A DNA stretch of 64,000 nt from Vampirovibrio chlorellavorus (GTDB lineage: Bacteria; Cyanobacteriota; Vampirovibrionia; Vampirovibrionales; Vampirovibrionaceae). Position 1 is the stretch's first letter. Each line of letters begins with the position of its first letter. Location of the stretch: NCBI GenBank assembly GCA_001858525.1, contig LAPX01000004.1, forward strand, positions 124,001 through 188,000. Reading direction: 5' to 3'. Below are positions 16,026 to 50,945 of this stretch, one piece after another. Under the pieces are notes generated by a model that was not told where the DNA came from, did not search any database, and was given only the letters and a program-made list of their open reading frames with translations. The position numbers were made by a program, and so were the translations under genes.

Positions 16026-17315
16026 ATGAATAGCCATTGCCTTTCCTCCCCCCCTGCCCTTCACTCACAGATTTTATCCGCTGAAGCCGAGCTTCAAGCG
16101 TTCGTTTGGCCCCAGCAAGAGGCCGTTTATTACGAAACTTTCCAGCGGGTTTTAACCGGTTTTGTCCAAAACAAGGTGGGCGAAGAGCACTTCTTATCGG
16201 TAACCGGATACGGCCACGACGACCTGGGCCGAGAAGTCACAGACGCCGTGTTTGCCCATGCCCTGCAAGCAGAAGCCGCTTTGGTTCGGGTGCAAATTGT
16301 ATCCGGAACCCATGCCTTGTCCGTAGGGCTCAACGGCTGTCTGCAACCCGGAGACACCATGTTGTCTATCACCGGGCGCCCCTATGACACGTTAGAAGAA
16401 GTCATTGGCTTGCGTGGCAATAGCAAGCACTCTCTGGCAGCCAAGCAGGTCCAATACCAGGAATTCTCAATTTTCAACCCGCCCCCTCAAGCGGAAACCG
16501 CTGCGGGCTATACGATTCGGACCACTTTTACGGAAACGGAAGCGCAACAAATCAGGACGGCCAAGCTGGTGTTCATCCAGCGCTCTCGGGGGTACAGTTT
16601 GCGCCCCTCCCTCACCATTCCTCAACTGTCTGAACTGATTCAGGCCGTCAAAGCCATCCATCCCCAAGTCATTGTGATGGTGGACAACTGTTACGGGGAA
16701 TTCACCCAGACCCAGGAACCCACCGCCGTGGGGGCTGACCTGATTGCGGGCTCCCTGATTAAAAATGCCGGGGGTGGCATTGTGCCTGCCGGTGGCTACG
16801 TAGCTGGACGGGCCGATTTGGTGGCTGCTTGCGCCGATTTTTTAACCTGCCCCGGCGTGGGTGCCGACGGTGGCTATACCTTTAACCTCACTCGCGTGCT
16901 ATTGCAAGGCTTGTACCTGGCGCCCGGCGTGGTCAAGGAGGCTCTGAAAGGGATGAGTCTGGCCGCCAAACTGTTTGAGCAAGCGGGATATGATACGGCC
17001 CCCCATTGGCAGGAGAGTCGTAGTGACATCATCCAGATCCTGACCCTGCGGGAAGCCGATAAACTGGTCAAGTTCTGCCAAGTGCTGCAAAGCCTGAGCC
17101 CCATTAACAGCCATATCACCCCCATTCCAGCCAATCCACCCGGTTATGCCGATGAAGTGGTCATGGCAGGCGGGACTTTTATTGATGGTTCCACCCTTGA
17201 GCTTTCCGCCGATGGCCCCCTGCGCCCGCCCTATGCCGTGTACCTGCAAGGGGGGCTGACCTACGCCCACACCCGTCTGGCGTTGCAGCGCATTGGGGAA
17301 GCCCTGAATCCCTAA
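16026..17315 (+). CDS. Methionine gamma-lyase family PLP enzyme
   Basis: Fold-type I PLP enzyme of the family annotated as Met_gamma_lyase (PF06838), once called aluminium resistance protein. 429 residues is typical. The N-terminal block has SVTGYGHDDLGREVTD, then RVQIVSGTHAL. The cofactor lysine lies in AGSLIKNAGGGIVPAGGY, with MVDNCYGEF upstream supplying the PLP-binding Asp. AAGGTG precedes the ATG by nine bases. Family members are proposed to act on sulfur amino acids; the substrate here is not evident. It is convergent with the following pilin, with a 4-base stop overlap. Confidence 0.88.
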   Translation: MNSHCLSSPPALHSQILSAEAELQAFVWPQQEAVYYETFQRVLTGFVQNKVGEEHFLSVTGYGHDDLGREVTDAVFAHALQAEAALVRVQIVSGTHALSVGLNGCLQPGDTMLSITGRPYDTLEEVIGLRGNSKHSLAAKQVQYQEFSIFNPPPQAETAAGYTIRTTFTETEAQQIRTAKLVFIQRSRGYSLRPSLTIPQLSELIQAVKAIHPQVIVMVDNCYGEFTQTQEPTAVGADLIAGSLIKNAGGGIVPAGGYVAGRADLVAACADFLTCPGVGADGGYTFNLTRVLLQGLYLAPGVVKEALKGMSLAAKLFEQAGYDTAPHWQESRSDIIQILTLREADKLVKFCQVLQSLSPINSHITPIPANPPGYADEVVMAGGTFIDGSTLELSADGPLRPPYAVYLQGGLTYAHTRLALQRIGEALNP

Positions 17316-17902
17316 TTCCAACTAAACCATAGTGGATCATAATTCCCAGGATTCCAGAAACCGTCAGCATCTTGACTTAGTGGAGTCATAGAACCCCAAG
17401 TTGATACACGCCCGTTATAATAAAGAACACCCCACACACTACTGGAGTCACCTTTGTAAGCACCATCTGGATCAACAAGAAACCACTGCATGTTGGTTGT
17501 ATTGTTTCCGCCAAAAGAACCACCATTGCCAAATGCCAAAATACTACCATTATGCAACTTTAAACAAACGCGGTTAGAGCAAACATATGATAAAGAATCA
17601 TTTCGGCTACCATCCAGAGTGGAGCTAGTATCCACCTGAAGATAGTTCAGATAAGGTGTGATTTCTGCAACCTTAGAATTTGAAGTAAGTAAATTATTTT
17701 GTTTATACATCTCAAACGCATTGCTCACCATCGCAAAATCTTCTTTTGTCAAAGCAATTCTTTGTGTGTTTTGCTGAGCGACAAGCAATTTGGGGATGGT
17801 AAACGTGGCAATCACCCCCAAAATAGCCAAACTAATCAATAACTCCGCCAGGGTAAAGCCCCAAACGGACTTTGTGCTTTTGTGGCCAGTTTTTAGAAGC
17901 AT
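17312..17902 (-). CDS. Prepilin with WFSWN tail (copy 1)
   Basis: Type IV pilin-like protein, 196 residues. A basic leader ends in Gly15 before the class III prepilin site WG|FTLAELLISL, followed by the usual hydrophobic helix (AILGVIATFTIPKLL). The mature region has one cysteine pair (YVCSNRVC), a DPDG segment and a C-terminal DPLWFSWN. The same tail and Cys pair recur in the protein at 25995-26579. No pilus assembly genes are nearby. Base composition is more AT-rich than the neighbours. GGAG lies seven bases before the ATG, but inside a short upstream ORF (17905-17943). Confidence 0.88.
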   Translation of the reverse strand: MLLKTGHKSTKSVWGFTLAELLISLAILGVIATFTIPKLLVAQQNTQRIALTKEDFAMVSNAFEMYKQNNLLTSNSKVAEITPYLNYLQVDTSSTLDGSRNDSLSYVCSNRVCLKLHNGSILAFGNGGSFGGNNTTNMQWFLVDPDGAYKGDSSSVWGVLYYNGRVSTWGSMTPLSQDADGFWNPGNYDPLWFSWN

Positions 17903-25994: not shown

Positions 25995-26579
25995 TTAATT
26001 CCAGCTAAACCATGAAGGATCGCCATTAGGTACCGCAGCAACAGAGCCCCAAGAACTGCTAGCACCCACTGGAATGTCCTCAACTGTAGTTATTTTTCCA
26101 CTGTAAAACAGCCAAAATTGAATACCTGAGCCAGGAATGTCAACACTGGCGTCTGGATCATAGTTAATGTAGAAGGAACTTAACGGAGTCGTTCCACCAA
26201 AAGAAGTGTTGTTATTAGTCCATAAAACACCTCCGGAAGCCAGTTTGTAGCAAAAATTAGAACCACAGGAATAGTTGCCGTAACCGGGTGGAGCATTCAC
26301 TGACAAGGTGGTATCACGGCCCATATAATTAATAAAAGGCACTAGATCACCGAACCGAGTGTTAGCATTAACACCATCTATTAACTGTAATTGCTGGTAA
26401 GCTCCTGTAATAGTAGCTGCTACTTCTTTGGCTCCGGCATTATACTTTTGATTTTGTTGAGTGCTCAAAATTTTGGGGATGGTAAACGTGGCAATCACCC
26501 CTAAAATGGCCAAACTAATCAACAATTCAGCCAGTGTGAACCCCCGCGATGACCTTTGCCCAAAAAAGTCACAAGACAT
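25995..26579 (-). CDS. Prepilin with WFSWN tail (copy 2)
   Basis: Type IV pilin-like protein, 194 residues. Leader ends at Gly13 before G|FTLAELLISLAILGV and ATFTIPKIL, identical over the first 20 residues to copy 1 (17312-17902). The mature region shares the Cys pair (YSCGSNFC), a DPD segment and a C-terminal DPSWFSWN. Elsewhere the two differ strongly. It is AT-rich compared with def and fmt, which flank it on the same strand. GAGGG lies twelve bases before the ATG. Probably a minor pilin or pseudopilin; function unknown. Confidence 0.88.
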   Translation of the reverse strand: MSCDFFGQRSSRGFTLAELLISLAILGVIATFTIPKILSTQQNQKYNAGAKEVAATITGAYQQLQLIDGVNANTRFGDLVPFINYMGRDTTLSVNAPPGYGNYSCGSNFCYKLASGGVLWTNNNTSFGGTTPLSSFYINYDPDASVDIPGSGIQFWLFYSGKITTVEDIPVGASSSWGSVAAVPNGDPSWFSWN

Positions 26580-44452: not shown

Positions 44453-44550
44453 ACACGAATTGCCCAGCGCGCTGATTGTAGCCGAGGGCTATTATAATGA
44501 ATGGTAGGCAATGTTGGCCCGGAAGGCAAGCGACCAGAAGGTGGAGTTTT

Positions 44551-45540
44551 ATGTCTCACAAACGGTGGATTCAAGCGCAAGAGCCGCACTGGCAGAGGCT
44601 TGAAACCCTGCTTGGCAAAGCCCAGCCCAACACCGCCAGTCTACCGCCGGAAGAAATTCGGGAATTGGGCCTGCTGTACCGGGGGGTCATCCACGATCTC
44701 TCCCGGGCGCAAAGCCAGCCGGAGGCCCAGCACCTGGAGCCTTATCTGAATAACCTGGTGCAGCGCTGCCATGGCAAAGTGTATGAGCGTCCCCCGGCCA
44801 GCGGGAAAGACGTGGCCAACTTTTTTCTGCGGGATTTTCCCCGGTGCTTTCGCAAAAACGCCCTGCTCATCGCGTTGGCCTTTGCCCTGTTTGTCGGGGG
44901 TTCGCTGTTGGCCATGCTGACCGTGCATCTGGAGCCCCGCACGGAGACCTACTTTCTGCCCCGCCCGATCATTGATCAACTGGATCAAGGGGTGCTGTGG
45001 ACGGACAACATGCAGGCCAACCCCTCGGAATCCAGCTTCCTGATGACCAATAACATTCGGGTGGCCTTTAACGCCTTTACCTTCGGGGTGTTGTTTGGGG
45101 TGGGCACCCTGCTGCTCTTGTTTCACAACGGATTGTTTGCCTTTGGCGGCCCCTTGCAAGTGTGTTTTAACCACGGTATGGGCTGGCGATTGCTCAATTT
45201 TATGCTGGCCCACGGGGTCATTGAACTGACCACCATTTTTATTGCCGGTGGGGCGGGCATGCTGATTGGCTTTGCCCTGCTGTTTCCGGGGGAGTTGCCC
45301 CGCTGGCAAGCAGTGCGGGTTAAGTCCAAAGAGGCTATTATCCTAATTGCCGGGTGTGTGCCCCTGCTGGTGATTGCGGGGATTATCGAGGGCATGGTGT
45401 CCCTCAATCAGGCGGTGCCGCCGGTGGCCCGCCTGGCCGTGGCCTTGGCCTCGGCAGTGGGATTAATCGCCTACTTGGGGTTTAGCGGGCGGACTACAGA
45501 AAGCAGCCGTACCATTTCTATCTCTAACAAAAGCAACTAA
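44551..45540 (+). CDS. SpoIIM/DUF95-family membrane protein
   Basis: 329 residues from the ATG at 44551 (MSHKRWIQ), with AAGG nine bases upstream. An N-terminal helical domain is followed by the DUF95 core: FFLRDFPRCFRKN then multiple membrane helices (IALAFALFVGGSLLAML, GVLFGVGTLLLLFHNGLF, AHGVIELTTIFIAGGAG, IILIAGCVPLLVIAGIIEG). In spore formers SpoIIM acts in engulfment; most other bacteria carry this family beside RDD and MoxR genes. The last 18 or so residues (SGRTTESSRTIS...) look unrelated and lie over the antisense end of the OLD gene. Confidence 0.85.
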   Translation: MSHKRWIQAQEPHWQRLETLLGKAQPNTASLPPEEIRELGLLYRGVIHDLSRAQSQPEAQHLEPYLNNLVQRCHGKVYERPPASGKDVANFFLRDFPRCFRKNALLIALAFALFVGGSLLAMLTVHLEPRTETYFLPRPIIDQLDQGVLWTDNMQANPSESSFLMTNNIRVAFNAFTFGVLFGVGTLLLLFHNGLFAFGGPLQVCFNHGMGWRLLNFMLAHGVIELTTIFIAGGAGMLIGFALLFPGELPRWQAVRVKSKEAIILIAGCVPLLVIAGIIEGMVSLNQAVPPVARLAVALASAVGLIAYLGFSGRTTESSRTISISNKSN

Positions 45541-47256
45541 CTCATTAACCTTCTGCTCCAAATCCAGAATTGAAAAGTCAGGCTCGCTTTCTACGACCCT
45601 TTTAGCAATTTCAAATTTTTTGGGACTAATATCTTTTCCATTTTTCTTCATATTTAGTAAACTATTAAATTGTCCATTCTTAGTAAAATTCACCTCCCCA
45701 TGCACACCAAGAATTGCATTTTTTAATTTTTCAAACTCAATATAATTTTCAATCTCTCTCCCCTGAGTAATCCAAACAAAACAACTTCTATCTTTGAATT
45801 CTTTTTCAATACGGAGCTTCGTGGTATTTATTGAATCTTTGGAATTTTTCTTATCACTATCAATAAGAATCGCCATATTCTGATTCAAACTACTCAAAGA
45901 AATAAACTCGCTTAGCTCTTCACTATCTACAGCTGTTAAGTGCGATAATAACCTACCGCCGTAAAACATAATGCAATAATGTAAGCCTTCAAACAAATCA
46001 GGTGCAACAGCCTTTAACCAAGAATTAACATATATCCGATCTGATGGCCCTTCGACCCAAATTATTGAATTAGCTTGGATTAAGTCGCTGGCCTTGTAAC
46101 CTAAGTCTCTACAAATTTGAAATTTATCAAGCCCCTCAGAGACTCTTTTTACTTTAGATTGCCCCGCACAAAGATTGACATGAAAAATTTCAGAATTAGG
46201 AGTGTCTAAAATATGAGCAGAATGTGTAGTTATAAAATACTGGTTATCCGTATTTTCAGAAAGGTAATGCATCAGTTTTCTCTGTAAATCTGGATGAAGA
46301 TATAACTCCGGTTCTTCAATGCAAACTACTTTTTTACTCAATGCTGTCGCTGCTGCTGCCAAAATTAAAACTTGATGAATCCCCGTCCCTAAATTCTGAA
46401 TTGGAAGATTTCTACCATTCATATTTACGTTTATAGTATCTCTTTCAAAAGGTATTTCTATTTTGGCAGATTGATCACCCGTCAAATTTTTGAGAAAAAG
46501 ATTAATTTTCTGAAATCTCTCGTTCTTTTCTGGTTTGTCATACGGAGGATTTTGAAGCTCTGCTAACTTTAAAATCAATGATTCACCATTTAATAAAACA
46601 TCATGATCCTTACCAGAAGAACCGCCCAGCTCAATTTTTCTAAAACAAGGAATTAATATAATTTCAGGTGCCTTAATATCAGAATAAATCCTTTGTATCA
46701 CATCGGGAATCCAATGTGCTCTCAAATCACCACCAGAGCTGTCAGTCAATTTAGTCCAAATATTTTGCCAATTCCAGGTTCCGATACCTGATTGAGTATC
46801 CAAATTATTAACAAATGAATCCTCAAAACCTGCTTTCTGATCAAAATTCAACCATCTAACCTCATCATCTCTTGTTTTCGAAAATACTTTTTGATCTAAA
46901 ATATAAGAGAATGCATTTATTAGACCATCCATTCGGAAAGATGGCGATTTTTTTAATATATCAACATAAGTCTGATGTTTTTTATTAATCCCCAAAGAAA
47001 AAATAGCATAAGCCCCATCAGCTGCTTCAGACCCAATAAAAGGAAATTGAACCTCAATACGTTTTTTGTTTTTCACAGAGTCCAAGTATTGAGAGTACTG
47101 CCCTGTTAAAAAATGGATAATATTTGATTTACCAGAGTTATTTTGACCAATAATTATATTTATTTTAGCGCAAGGGCCAATATATTGGATATCCTTGTAG
47201 CTTTTATAATTCCCAAATCCAAACCCTTCAATAAAAATACAATCTTCCAACACCAA
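45463..47256 (-). CDS. OLD-family ATPase/TOPRIM nuclease, candidate defence gene
   Basis: 597 residues. N-terminal ABC-type ATPase: Walker A GQNNSGKS (37-44), signature NLGTGIHQ (288-295), Walker B VCIEEPELYLHP (311-322), D/H region TTHSAHIL. C-terminal TOPRIM: VEGPSD (E402), GG (433-434), LIDSDKK (D466, D468) and GREIENY (499-505), as in OLD-family nucleases and GajA. Base composition is far lower in GC than the flanks (one 60-base line counts 18 GC against 36 in mfd), a sign of transfer. No UvrD/GajB-type partner is adjacent. The start is TTG, GTG or TTG at 47256-47248. The last 25 residues are antisense to the SpoIIM gene. Confidence 0.85.
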   Translation of the reverse strand: MVLEDCIFIEGFGFGNYKSYKDIQYIGPCAKINIIIGQNNSGKSNIIHFLTGQYSQYLDSVKNKKRIEVQFPFIGSEAADGAYAIFSLGINKKHQTYVDILKKSPSFRMDGLINAFSYILDQKVFSKTRDDEVRWLNFDQKAGFEDSFVNNLDTQSGIGTWNWQNIWTKLTDSSGGDLRAHWIPDVIQRIYSDIKAPEIILIPCFRKIELGGSSGKDHDVLLNGESLILKLAELQNPPYDKPEKNERFQKINLFLKNLTGDQSAKIEIPFERDTINVNMNGRNLPIQNLGTGIHQVLILAAAATALSKKVVCIEEPELYLHPDLQRKLMHYLSENTDNQYFITTHSAHILDTPNSEIFHVNLCAGQSKVKRVSEGLDKFQICRDLGYKASDLIQANSIIWVEGPSDRIYVNSWLKAVAPDLFEGLHYCIMFYGGRLLSHLTAVDSEELSEFISLSSLNQNMAILIDSDKKNSKDSINTTKLRIEKEFKDRSCFVWITQGREIENYIEFEKLKNAILGVHGEVNFTKNGQFNSLLNMKKNGKDISPKKFEIAKRVVESEPDFSILDLEQKVNELVAFVRDRNGTAAFCSPPAKPQVGD

Positions 47257-47285
47257 AGCTCCAAACGTTTACTTAAAACTATTTA

Positions 47286-50200
47286 TCATCCCGCTTTAGC
47301 GGTTTCGTTAATAATTTTGTGCAGGTGGGTAAATAGCTCCGTCAGGAACTCCACTTGATCTTCCCCGGTCATGGCCAGCAATTTCACAATCAGCACCGGC
47401 AGGCTGCCCTGCTTGGAAGTCACCCCCGGCACCCAGCGGGCTTTGCGCCCAATTTCCACCGGCAACTGCTTTTGCAGGAACAACCACTCTTGCAGGGTGT
47501 AAGGCACCGTAATGCGCAACGATTCATCATCGGCCCGCACTTGCGGAATATTGAGCGCCGTGGCCAAGATCCGCAGCCTGACTAAATTAACCAACATTTG
47601 CGTTTGCTTGGGAATATCGCCAAAGCGGTCTTTCCACTCGGCCTGAATAATCTCGATGGCCAACTCGCTGTCCACACTGGCCAGGCGCTTGTACTCCATC
47701 AGCTTCACATCGCGATCGCCCACCCATTTGTCGGGAATGAGCGCCGTGACGTTGATATCGATGATGGCCGGTTCTTTTTCTTCGGCCACTTCCCCCGTTT
47801 GCAACTCGTGGATGGACTCTTCCAGCATTTGGCAGTAGAGATCGAAGCCCACCGCCACCATGTGCCCATGCTGCTCGGAGCCCAGCACGTTGCCCACCCC
47901 CCGGATTTCCAAGTCCCGCAGGGCAATCTGGTAGCCGCTACCGAGAGAAGTAAACTCCCGAATGGCCCGCAGGCGGTCCCTGGCGTCTTCGGTCAGGTTG
48001 CGCTCCGGGTCGTAGTAGCAATAAGCATAAGCCTGTACGTTGCTTCGGCCCACCCGCCCACGAATCTGGTACAACTGGGCCAGCCCCAGCCGGTCCGCCC
48101 GGTCCAGAATGATGGTGTTGGCGCTGGGAATGTCCAGACCGCTTTCAATGATGGTGGTACACAGCAGCACATCGTACTGGTGCTGGGCGAAATCCAGCAT
48201 GACGTTTTCCAAATCTCGCTCCGGCATTTGCCCGTGACCCACGGCAAAGCGCACTTCCGGCACCAATGCCTGCAATTCTTCCAGCTTGGCGTAGATGGTC
48301 TGCACCCGGTTGTGCATAAAGTACACCTGTCCGCCCCGGTCCACTTCCTGCAAGATGGCCATGCGGATTTGGGCCGGGTTGTACGGCCCCACAAAGGTTT
48401 TAATGGGCGCCCGGTTGATGGGCGCGGTGTTGATGACCGACATTTCCCGAATACCGGACAGGGCCATATACAGCGTGCGGGGAATGGGCGTGGCCGATAG
48501 GGTCAGCACGTCCACCTCGGTCTTCAGCTGCTTCATTTTCTCCTTGTGGGCTACCCCGAAGCGCTGTTCCTCGTCCACCACAACTAGACCCAGGTTCTTG
48601 AACTTGATGTCTTTCTGCAGCAGGCGATGGGTGCCTACCACCACGTCGCACTCGCCAATGCTCAGGCGGGCAATGACCTCTTTTTGCTCCTGCGGGGACC
48701 GGAAACGACTGAGCAGGCCCACCCGCATGGGGTAGGGCGACAGGCGCTCCACCAGCGTATTGAAATGCTGCTGGGCCAAAATGGTAGTCGGCACCAGCAC
48801 GGCGGCCTGCTTGCCCGATAAAATACACTTGAAAATGGCCCGAATGGCCACTTCGGTTTTCCCAAAGCCCACGTCCCCGCAAATCAGGCGATCCATGGGC
48901 TTGTCGGATTCCATATCCTGCTTGGTGTCCTGAATGGCCTGCCACTGATCGGGAGTTTCCGTGTAGGGAAAGGCCTCTTCCATTTCCACCTGCCAGGGGG
49001 TATCCGGCTCGAACTGGTGACCACGGGCCTTGGCCCGGGCGGCGTACAGGGCCATCAAATCCTTGGCGATGACCTGAATGGACTTTTTAACCTTGGACTT
49101 GACCTTGCTCCACTCAATGCCACCCATCTTGCTGAGTTTGGGCGGTTTTTCACCGGCACCCCGATAGCGGGACAGCATGTTCAGCTGATCGATGGGCACA
49201 TGCAGCTTGTCGTTGGAGGCGTACTGAATGCTCAGGTATTCCCGCTTTTCCCCGTCGATGTTGATGCTGGTCATCTCAACGAACTGGCCAATCCCGTGTT
49301 TGGCGTGCACCACGAAGTCGCCCATGCGCAAATCGTGGATGGAGTTGATGACATCAATGTCTTCCCGCTTGGAAGGCTTGGTTTTGGCCGTCATAACCCG
49401 TTTCAGACGGCGTCCGTACAGCTCGGTGTCTGTAAAGTGGGCGATTTTTTCAGCAGGCAGCACAAAGCCATCTTGCGGGCCGATTTTGGAAATAATGACA
49501 TCCCGGCTCTCGGACAGCAGCGTTGTGGGGTCTAACCCCTCATCCGTCCAGTAGGTGGCGGGAACATCCCATTCCTTGCAGGCGTCCAGCACCCGCTGGG
49601 GGTGATCGGTACTGATAAAAATCTGCACCTGCTGGCGACGCAACTGGTTAAAGTGCTCACAAGCCTTGGGCATATCGGCCTTAAACTGCTCGGCCCCACT
49701 GACATCCAGAGAACAAACCTCGGTCAGCGTTGGACTTTGGGCCAACTGACCATCGGCATTCAGGGGCAAGGTATCCAAAAACACCCGTCCAGCGGCATGC
49801 TCCTTCAAATGCGTCAGCGCATCGGCGTCCGTCCAGTGGTATTCAAAGCCCAAATCCAGCAAGCGGCCTTTTTCCAGCCCTTGGCTAACCTGCGTTTTCA
49901 AGCGATCCGACAAGCCACCCAGATTGTTTTCCAGCAAGGCCCAGTCATCCATGACCACAATGGCCGTTTTGGGCAGGTAATCGATGATGGTTTTATAATC
50001 CTGATGCAGCAAGGGGGCGTAATAATCAATGCCATCCGGCAAAAACGATTGCTCCAGACCCTGAATCTGGTTCTCCAGCGTCATTTGCAAGCCTTCCAGC
50101 TCCACGCCAGAGAGATACTTTTTCTGCACCGCCAAGCGCTGATGCAGCAATTCCGGCAAACGCTGGCGATTTTCCGCATTCAGCACCAAACCCGATCGGG

Positions 50201-50945
50201 GAATGGCCACCACCTCATGCACCCGCTCGATGGAACGCTGATTGTCCACATCAATGACCCGGATGTTTTCGATGGTATCGCCGAAAAACTCGATGCGCAC
50301 CGGCTCCCCGTTGACCGGATACAGGTCAAAAATATCGCCCCGGCTGCTAAATTCGCCGGGATCCATAATCATGCTGCTGCGCACATACCCCAAGGCCAAA
50401 CATTGCTCCACCACCGTTTCCGGGGAAATCACCTGCCCTTGATGCAGCTTGATGGCGTAAGCATCCAGCTCCTCAATGGACAAGTGCTTGATCAGCAGGT
50501 TTTTGGGAGAGACCAACAGTACAAAAGACTCGCCCTGCTTCAGTCGATTGAGAATGCGGTACTGATTTTTCAGGGCCTGCACCGGAAACACCGACAAATC
50601 GTAAGGGGAAAAGTCTTCCGCCGGGTAGCGTTCCACTTTTTCGGTGAGAAACTGGTTTAATTCAAATTCGTACTTCACCGCCGTTTGCGGATCGGGGCAC
50701 ACCACCACAATGGGCTGATTCAGTCGCTCGAAAGTGGCGGCAATGGTCAAGGCTTTGATCGAAGGATGGGCCAGATTTTCCAGATGCGCTTCCGGCAAAA
50801 TAGCTGACGGATGGTGCAACTTGGCTTCAAAATTACGCACAAACTGGTGAAACCAGTCGGTTTCCATAAAGCGCTCCAGCATAAAGCGGGGAGCAGTGAC
50901 ATTCACCAAATGGCGCTGGGTTAAGTGGGAATCAGACAGGGTCAT
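47286..50945 (-). CDS. mfd: Transcription-repair coupling factor Mfd
   Basis: 1219-residue ATP-dependent translocase that removes stalled RNA polymerase and recruits UvrA. The UvrB-like N-terminal region (ALTIAATFERLNQPIVVV), the RNA-polymerase-interacting domain (GDFVVHAKHGIGQFVEM, KREYLSIQYASNDKLHVP) and the RecG-like motor are all present: Walker A GDVGFGKTEVAIRAI, DEEQRFGV, SATPIPRTLYMAL, and TTIIESGLDIPSANT with GRVGRS. The C-terminal TRCF domain is intact. GAGG is close before the ATG. It begins six bases after the DUF192 gene. Confidence 0.97.
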   Translation of the reverse strand: MTLSDSHLTQRHLVNVTAPRFMLERFMETDWFHQFVRNFEAKLHHPSAILPEAHLENLAHPSIKALTIAATFERLNQPIVVVCPDPQTAVKYEFELNQFLTEKVERYPAEDFSPYDLSVFPVQALKNQYRILNRLKQGESFVLLVSPKNLLIKHLSIEELDAYAIKLHQGQVISPETVVEQCLALGYVRSSMIMDPGEFSSRGDIFDLYPVNGEPVRIEFFGDTIENIRVIDVDNQRSIERVHEVVAIPRSGLVLNAENRQRLPELLHQRLAVQKKYLSGVELEGLQMTLENQIQGLEQSFLPDGIDYYAPLLHQDYKTIIDYLPKTAIVVMDDWALLENNLGGLSDRLKTQVSQGLEKGRLLDLGFEYHWTDADALTHLKEHAAGRVFLDTLPLNADGQLAQSPTLTEVCSLDVSGAEQFKADMPKACEHFNQLRRQQVQIFISTDHPQRVLDACKEWDVPATYWTDEGLDPTTLLSESRDVIISKIGPQDGFVLPAEKIAHFTDTELYGRRLKRVMTAKTKPSKREDIDVINSIHDLRMGDFVVHAKHGIGQFVEMTSINIDGEKREYLSIQYASNDKLHVPIDQLNMLSRYRGAGEKPPKLSKMGGIEWSKVKSKVKKSIQVIAKDLMALYAARAKARGHQFEPDTPWQVEMEEAFPYTETPDQWQAIQDTKQDMESDKPMDRLICGDVGFGKTEVAIRAIFKCILSGKQAAVLVPTTILAQQHFNTLVERLSPYPMRVGLLSRFRSPQEQKEVIARLSIGECDVVVGTHRLLQKDIKFKNLGLVVVDEEQRFGVAHKEKMKQLKTEVDVLTLSATPIPRTLYMALSGIREMSVINTAPINRAPIKTFVGPYNPAQIRMAILQEVDRGGQVYFMHNRVQTIYAKLEELQALVPEVRFAVGHGQMPERDLENVMLDFAQHQYDVLLCTTIIESGLDIPSANTIILDRADRLGLAQLYQIRGRVGRSNVQAYAYCYYDPERNLTEDARDRLRAIREFTSLGSGYQIALRDLEIRGVGNVLGSEQHGHMVAVGFDLYCQMLEESIHELQTGEVAEEKEPAIIDINVTALIPDKWVGDRDVKLMEYKRLASVDSELAIEIIQAEWKDRFGDIPKQTQMLVNLVRLRILATALNIPQVRADDESLRITVPYTLQEWLFLQKQLPVEIGRKARWVPGVTSKQGSLPVLIVKLLAMTGEDQVEFLTELFTHLHKIINETAKAG

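Follow-up and report, generated by a model that had tools for sequence, protein, structure and literature searches.

A probable horizontally acquired single-gene OLD-family nuclease in a variable slot behind mfd of Vampirovibrio chlorellavorus

Within the 64,000-nucleotide stretch of Vampirovibrio chlorellavorus DNA analysed here (contig LAPX01000004.1, in the following called the window), a strikingly AT-rich gene for an OLD-family protein stands between the core genes mfd and SpoIIM, which raises the question of what this gene does and how it came to lie there. Membership of the protein in the OLD family follows from its motifs, from matches to PADLOC, NCBIfam and PDB profiles and from its fold. 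Judged from sequence comparison, it is likely a horizontally gained, single-gene anti-phage nuclease that entered a variable slot behind mfd. The features on which the following analysis is based are compiled in Table 1.

Table 1. Positions of the OLD-family gene, its motifs, its borders and its neighbours in the window.
Feature	Position	Strand	Basis
OLD-family ATPase-TOPRIM nuclease gene	45463..47256	-	longest ORF from TTG; ORF list, domain and alignment searches
GGAG (47262-47259) and probable GTG start (47253-47251), 5 nt between	47251..47262	-	sequence
Walker A GQNNSGKS, residues 37-44	47125..47148	-	translation, family alignment
Walker B glutamates E314-E315	46312..46317	-	family alignment
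TOPRIM EGPSD (E402 metal A, D406 metal B)	46039..46053	-	alignment; roles per PMC6755086, PMC7049728
TOPRIM DSD (D466, D468)	45853..45861	-	family alignment
E501-I-E503-N-Y motif (metal B side)	45742..45756	-	family alignment
K547, invariant lysine in the C-terminal helices; possible counterpart of Bp OLD K562	45616..45618	-	alignment, model
Non-native OLD protein tail, residues 583-597, disordered in model	45466..45510	-	homolog alignment, breakpoints, model
Left breakpoint: last G002-homologous base 45492	45492..45493		alignment to G002
Right breakpoint: G002 homology resumes at 47290, mfd stop codon	47289..47290		alignment to G002
SpoIIM-family membrane protein; last 15 residues from inserted DNA	44497..45540	+	PF01944, 1.7e-28
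mfd (transcription-repair coupling factor), upstream of OLD gene, same strand	47286..50945	-	DEAD, TRCF, CarD-like domains

The OLD-type ORF comprises 597 codons without a frameshift. In its longest form it begins with the TTG codon at 47256; the GTG codon at 47253 is the more probable start, because a GGAG stands 5 nt before it. With a GC content of 0.34 and a third-position GC content (GC3) of 0.27, the gene departs clearly from SpoIIM (0.58 and 0.71) and mfd (0.56 and 0.72). An initial annotation made from the letters of the window had proposed both this foreign base composition and the identity of the two flanking genes, the latter now being confirmed by Pfam domains. Its GC content is the lowest among all large ORFs of the window, and a 500-base GC profile from 40 to 52 kb dips to 0.31-0.35 at the OLD gene alone. 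Of the extent given initially, 45463 to 47285, the first end holds, whereas the gene itself ends at 47256 and the remaining 29 nt (47257-47285) are the gap to the mfd stop codon. Likewise, the gene does lie between its two neighbours, but it does not fill the space almost exactly as had been described, since its 3' end overlaps the convergent SpoIIM gene tail to tail by 78 nt (45463-45540). A promoter search before the gene gave no evident promoter of its own. Due to its short distance from the mfd stop codon and its location on the same strand, transcription from mfd may extend into the gene. In ORF, Pfam and RNA searches, the neighbourhood showed neither a UvrD-like gene nor a reverse transcriptase nor any known RNA, so that the earlier statement that the locus is not a standard two-gene Gabija system stands.

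To what extent the protein has kept the features of an active nuclease can be judged from its domains. Both ATPase halves are recognised by Pfam (AAA_15, 1.2e-22; AAA_21, 1.5e-21); the OLD-like_TOPRIM match (PF20469) is sub-threshold with an E value of 0.04 and 14.9 bits vs. a cut-off of 23.2, which is a criterion of the database rather than a biological one. Taken together, the PADLOC and Pfam matches are of the defence type. In a family alignment of 22 rows, i.e. the OLD protein of the window and 21 homologs, K43, E314/E315 within the Walker B stretch CIEEPELYLHP and H345 of the H-loop are kept in every row that covers them, while the TOPRIM residues E402, D406, D466, D468 and E503 are invariant, which bears out the initial reading of intact ATPase and TOPRIM motifs. 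By their order, these five acidic residues would match those that bind metal in Bp OLD (E400, E404, D455, D457, E508) and Ts OLD (E377, D381, D431, D433, E480) (PMC6755086, PMC7049728). Also invariant in the 22 rows is K547, which the model places in a C-terminal helix. Class 2 OLD enzymes possess a catalytic lysine (K562) in their C-terminal helical domain, to which K547 may, going by order only, be equivalent.

In the predicted structure of the protein (mean pLDDT 79, pTM 0.71), helix 478-489 leads straight into strand 493-496, with no helix between TOPRIM alpha3 and beta4. The TOPRIM domain thus appears in the class 1 state, as Insert 3 of class 2 is lacking between these two elements of the model. 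The TOPRIM core is followed by helices 508-519, 547-554 and 566-580, which may form a C-terminal helical domain of the kind that Ts OLD (class 1) lacks. A Foldseek search with the model returned the retron-Eco8 OLD protein as top match as well as GajA, PtuA and Ts OLD. Since the TM scores over the query are about 0.3 for the retron protein, GajA and Ts OLD alike, this search supports the OLD family, not a class; a structure search, as initially suggested, hence agrees with the family and does not sort the protein into one of the OLD classes.

A whole-genome search of four congeners (G001-G004) detected the OLD gene in none of them (0/4), with either no match or weak ATPase matches of E > 1e-4. 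At the locus itself, the absence of the gene from relatives, as anticipated, was found, whereas the expected direct adjacency of SpoIIM and mfd was not, the slot being filled by other genes. Here, G002 carries a 124-aa ORF, G004 a homolog of the latter beside SpoIIM with a DUF697-type ORF before it, G003 a 199-aa pilin-like gene and G001 a 312-aa ORF. Different slot contents in each congener thus reveal a variable slot between core genes, whose GC content lies between 0.31 and 0.48 in all genomes compared. No bare SpoIIM-mfd junction was seen, and a simple empty site in the relatives can be rejected, because all five genomes have genes in the slot. In G004, one contig breaks off beside mfd and another beside SpoIIM, and an apparent half transposase gene stands at each of these ends (last 290 bases of L107, first 200 bases of L108). 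We infer that the two ends join across the slot, and an insertion sequence is probably a further part of the slot content in G004. Comparison with G004 over the left 45 kb of the window yields just two other differences of such size, and the mfd-SpoIIM gap is therefore unusually variable among the five genomes. A remnant of the small gene of G002 and G004 at the OLD locus was likewise rejected, as no match to it exists anywhere in the host genome (G000).

Some of the genes encountered in this comparison deserve separate mention. The 312-aa ORF of G001 (L018:525-1460, minus strand) contains an RGDVIH stretch resembling the HEPN RNase motif; it has no Pfam, PADLOC or PHROG match and a 24% relative elsewhere in G001. 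The window contains two single pilin-like genes (17312-17902 and 25995-26579, both on the minus strand) with the N-terminus GFTLAELLISLAILGVIATFTIPK and GC contents of 0.41 and 0.43, and at both sites G004 has only 140-240 bases. The gene in the G003 slot is of the same kind. With 40 PF07963 matches in the host genome and 42 in G001 vs. 1 in a sister-family genome, these counts point to a dispersed, lineage-specific expansion.

The borders of the inserted DNA were determined against G002, the closest congener with a continuous locus. Both breakpoints coincide with conserved ends of the flanking genes, i.e. the conserved SpoIIM end (45492) and the mfd stop codon (47290). Conservation among the OLD homologs stops at N581 (45514-45516), and the terminal 15-16 residues of the OLD protein have no counterpart in the homologs; the last 27 bases of this tail (residues 589-597) are SpoIIM-homologous DNA. 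Because the OLD tail is non-native and the last 15 SpoIIM residues are encoded by inserted DNA, the two genes each seem to have lost their own end at the junction, and the alteration of the native C-terminus could weaken the activity of the OLD protein. The borders show no direct or inverted repeats, tRNA, integrase or gene fragments; given the absence of such repeats, of a tRNA and of an integrase, a transposon or prophage insertion at this site was rejected. The initial annotation had considered the gene a possible remnant of a larger island, which is not supported, as the DNA between the breakpoints contains no remaining mobile or defence gene and the homologs elsewhere also stand alone. 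In principle, the 15 non-native codons at the end of the gene and the lack of an obvious promoter could indicate an inert relic, be it a cargo gene in decay or what is left of a larger defence island or mobile element. The ORF is, however, open over its full length, the 21 homologs (35-41% identical) agree at the catalytic positions, and clean borders go along with homologs that are likewise single genes, so that an inert relic appears unlikely.

With about 580 aa and 35-42% identity, the homologs form a coherent family whose members occur as lone genes on chromosomes, on plasmids and in prophages from several phyla. Scanning of genome contigs yielded full-length members in Kiritimatiellae, Burkholderia and Roseomonas, whereas those from Marivita and a planctomycete are partial, and plasmid-borne members are found in Vibrio, Burkholderia, Ruegeria and Rhodococcus. 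IMG/VR contributes 30 loci, 24 of which are nearly full length. PHROG-matching neighbours confirm the prophage setting of four homologs, with a portal protein (L077), a tail completion protein (L080), a minor tail protein (L088) and, on both sides, a minor head protein and a head protease (L094). Judging from the P2 map, the portal-side position in L077 would correspond to the P2 old region near the cos end. In the chromosomal, plasmid and prophage neighbourhoods inspected, no partner gene recurs and no UvrD-like gene was seen, and a shared partner gene was accordingly rejected.

Within the phylum of the host, the family is rare; it was found by profile search in 2 of 386 sampled genomes and additionally occurs in G008, which belongs to another genus of the same bacterial family and carries a 42% homolog at a different site, adjoining tRNA-Met and a TPR-GreABC-PIN-type protein. 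In G151, of the same phylum (L114:8748-12646), a relative with 41% identity over the ATPase-TOPRIM core and a GC content of 0.32 follows groES-groEL at a distance of about 100 nt and in the same orientation, and on a Roseomonas contig the homolog is flanked by an HTH gene, itself located behind accC, and by a leuA-like gene. Insertion behind housekeeping genes is thus recurrent, albeit in few cases. The neighbouring protein in G008 (L054:3146-6967, minus strand) is an AT-rich protein of 1274 aa with TPR repeats and a TPR-GreABC-PIN conflict-system PIN domain, encoded in a region near gyrB and tRNA-Met.

This distribution bears on two further explanations. Firstly, the nuclease might work with Mfd as a co-expressed DNA translocase in a functionally Gabija-like pair, given that only 29 nt separate the gene from mfd, that both share one strand, that the ribosome-binding site is good and that Gabija couples an OLD protein with a helicase. 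Mfd is, however, an SF2 housekeeping translocase and not UvrD-like, the homologs are located behind groEL, an HTH gene, phage head genes, tRNA-Met and others with none seen beside mfd, and the mfd-side slot of the congeners contains unrelated genes, all of which makes such a pair most improbable. Secondly, not every OLD protein is defensive, the archaeal OLD protein Cran1 having a cell-cycle role instead (PMC12796447). A comparable housekeeping or cell-cycle role, with the odd composition resulting from local drift, is contradicted by the patchiness of the gene (0/4 congeners, 2/386 phylum genomes) and by the presence of the family on prophages and plasmids; we consider it improbable. Acquisition of a stand-alone OLD gene, as put forward initially, is in contrast supported by its absence from all four congeners, by the sharp breakpoints at the flank ends and by the single-gene homologs in prophages and plasmids.

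When these findings are taken into account, a mode of action for the acquired nuclease can be proposed. Hereby, the gene would most likely have come in through exchange at the conserved genes on either side and not by any mobility of its own, and the protein would be translated at a low level from the mfd transcript. The ABC-type ATPase head would keep the TOPRIM domain inactive and sense an event linked to infection, whereupon the TOPRIM domain, aided by K547, would cut nucleic acid (DNA or tRNA) by two-metal catalysis, so that phage growth would be stopped or the infected cell killed. P2 Old is triggered by loss of RecBC function, GajA by nucleotide depletion. In the host genome, no match to RecC was obtained and two PDDEXK_1 genes are present, one of them in a 1113-aa ORF; RecBCD-type sensing would therefore have to run through an AddAB-like enzyme. 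P2 Old reportedly cuts tRNA, V. cholerae OLD reportedly nicks DNA, and YbjD does not depend on its TOPRIM domain to act (all as described or cited in PMC13261556). As P2 Old and YbjD are distant relatives, their trigger and substrate are not transferable to the protein of the window. A literature search retrieved no assayed member of the lone-OLD family.

Concerning the host, PsaA and PsaB are missing from its genome and from the sampled members of its class and present elsewhere in the phylum, on account of which the host would belong to a non-photosynthetic sister lineage of Cyanobacteria. Three more OLD-type TOPRIM genes (L001, L002 and L003) are found on its contigs C1, C22 and C2, the first being a clear P2 Old relative with 318 bits to PADLOC Old; together with the lone OLD gene, the genome hence carries several different OLD proteins. 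With about 30 full-length examples and fixed invariant residues, the lone-OLD family is well suited for asking how a single OLD protein senses infection without a helicase or retron. Moreover, the gap between mfd and SpoIIM, which is filled differently across the five sister species, offers a clear case from nature in which a defence-type gene has entered a slot flanked by core genes, with no visible mobility machinery.

How does this protein relate to the known OLD systems? OLD classes are assigned by gene context (PMC10568477, PMC7049728), and by gene context the protein belongs to class 1. Like class 1 OLD proteins (P2 Old, Thermus scotoductus OLD, YbjD/OldB, V. cholerae OLD), it is encoded by a single gene, combines an ABC ATPase with a TOPRIM domain, has the same metal-binding residues with an Asp at the metal B position, as D381 in Ts OLD, and is predicted to lack Insert 3. 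As with P2 old, homologs reside in prophages, in one case (L077) by the portal gene. However, P2 Old aligns with it over just about 124 columns at the ATPase-TOPRIM junction, the PADLOC Old model gives 52.6 bits with a best stretch of 53 residues compared to 712 bits for P2 Old itself, YbjD is still more distant, and Ts OLD (525 aa) has a shorter stretch after the TOPRIM core. With class 2 OLD/GajA (Gabija) it shares the ATPase-TOPRIM order, and the invariant lysine K547 in its C-terminal helices may be the counterpart of K562 in Bp OLD. Yet no UvrD/PcrA/Rep-like helicase lies beside the gene and the GajA models match partially (at best 71.6 bits vs. 394-660 for GajA-like proteins of related genomes), so that Gabija is rejected. 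The class 3 retron OLD protein (Retron-Eco8) is the top match in Foldseek and NCBIfam, with 49.7 bits vs. a cut-off of 250; a retron is rejected, as neither a reverse transcriptase nor a retron ncRNA is present at the locus. Class 4 OLD/PARIS is rejected since ATPase and TOPRIM are fused in one ORF.

In a phylogenetic tree, the family stands apart from P2 Old, YbjD and two GajA proteins on very long branches, and two uncharacterised proteins of the same taxonomic class (L006, L007) fall inside it, which renders both class placement and strict monophyly unsure. Lone OLD genes are rare and poorly understood (PMC13261556), and a published OLD tree comprises at least 11 uncharacterised clades (U1-U11), several of them dominated by bacteria (PMC12796447), one of which may be the family described here. 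We tentatively raise the possibility, less than an even prospect, that the family represents a distinct uncharacterised OLD class which combines the context and TOPRIM core of class 1 with a lysine of the class 2 type, spreading in the form of a bare one-gene cassette that would use housekeeping-operon transcription and move into and out of slots flanked by core genes without a mobility gene. If this holds true, such a cassette would settle directly behind housekeeping operons, i.e. behind mfd here and behind groES-groEL in G151.
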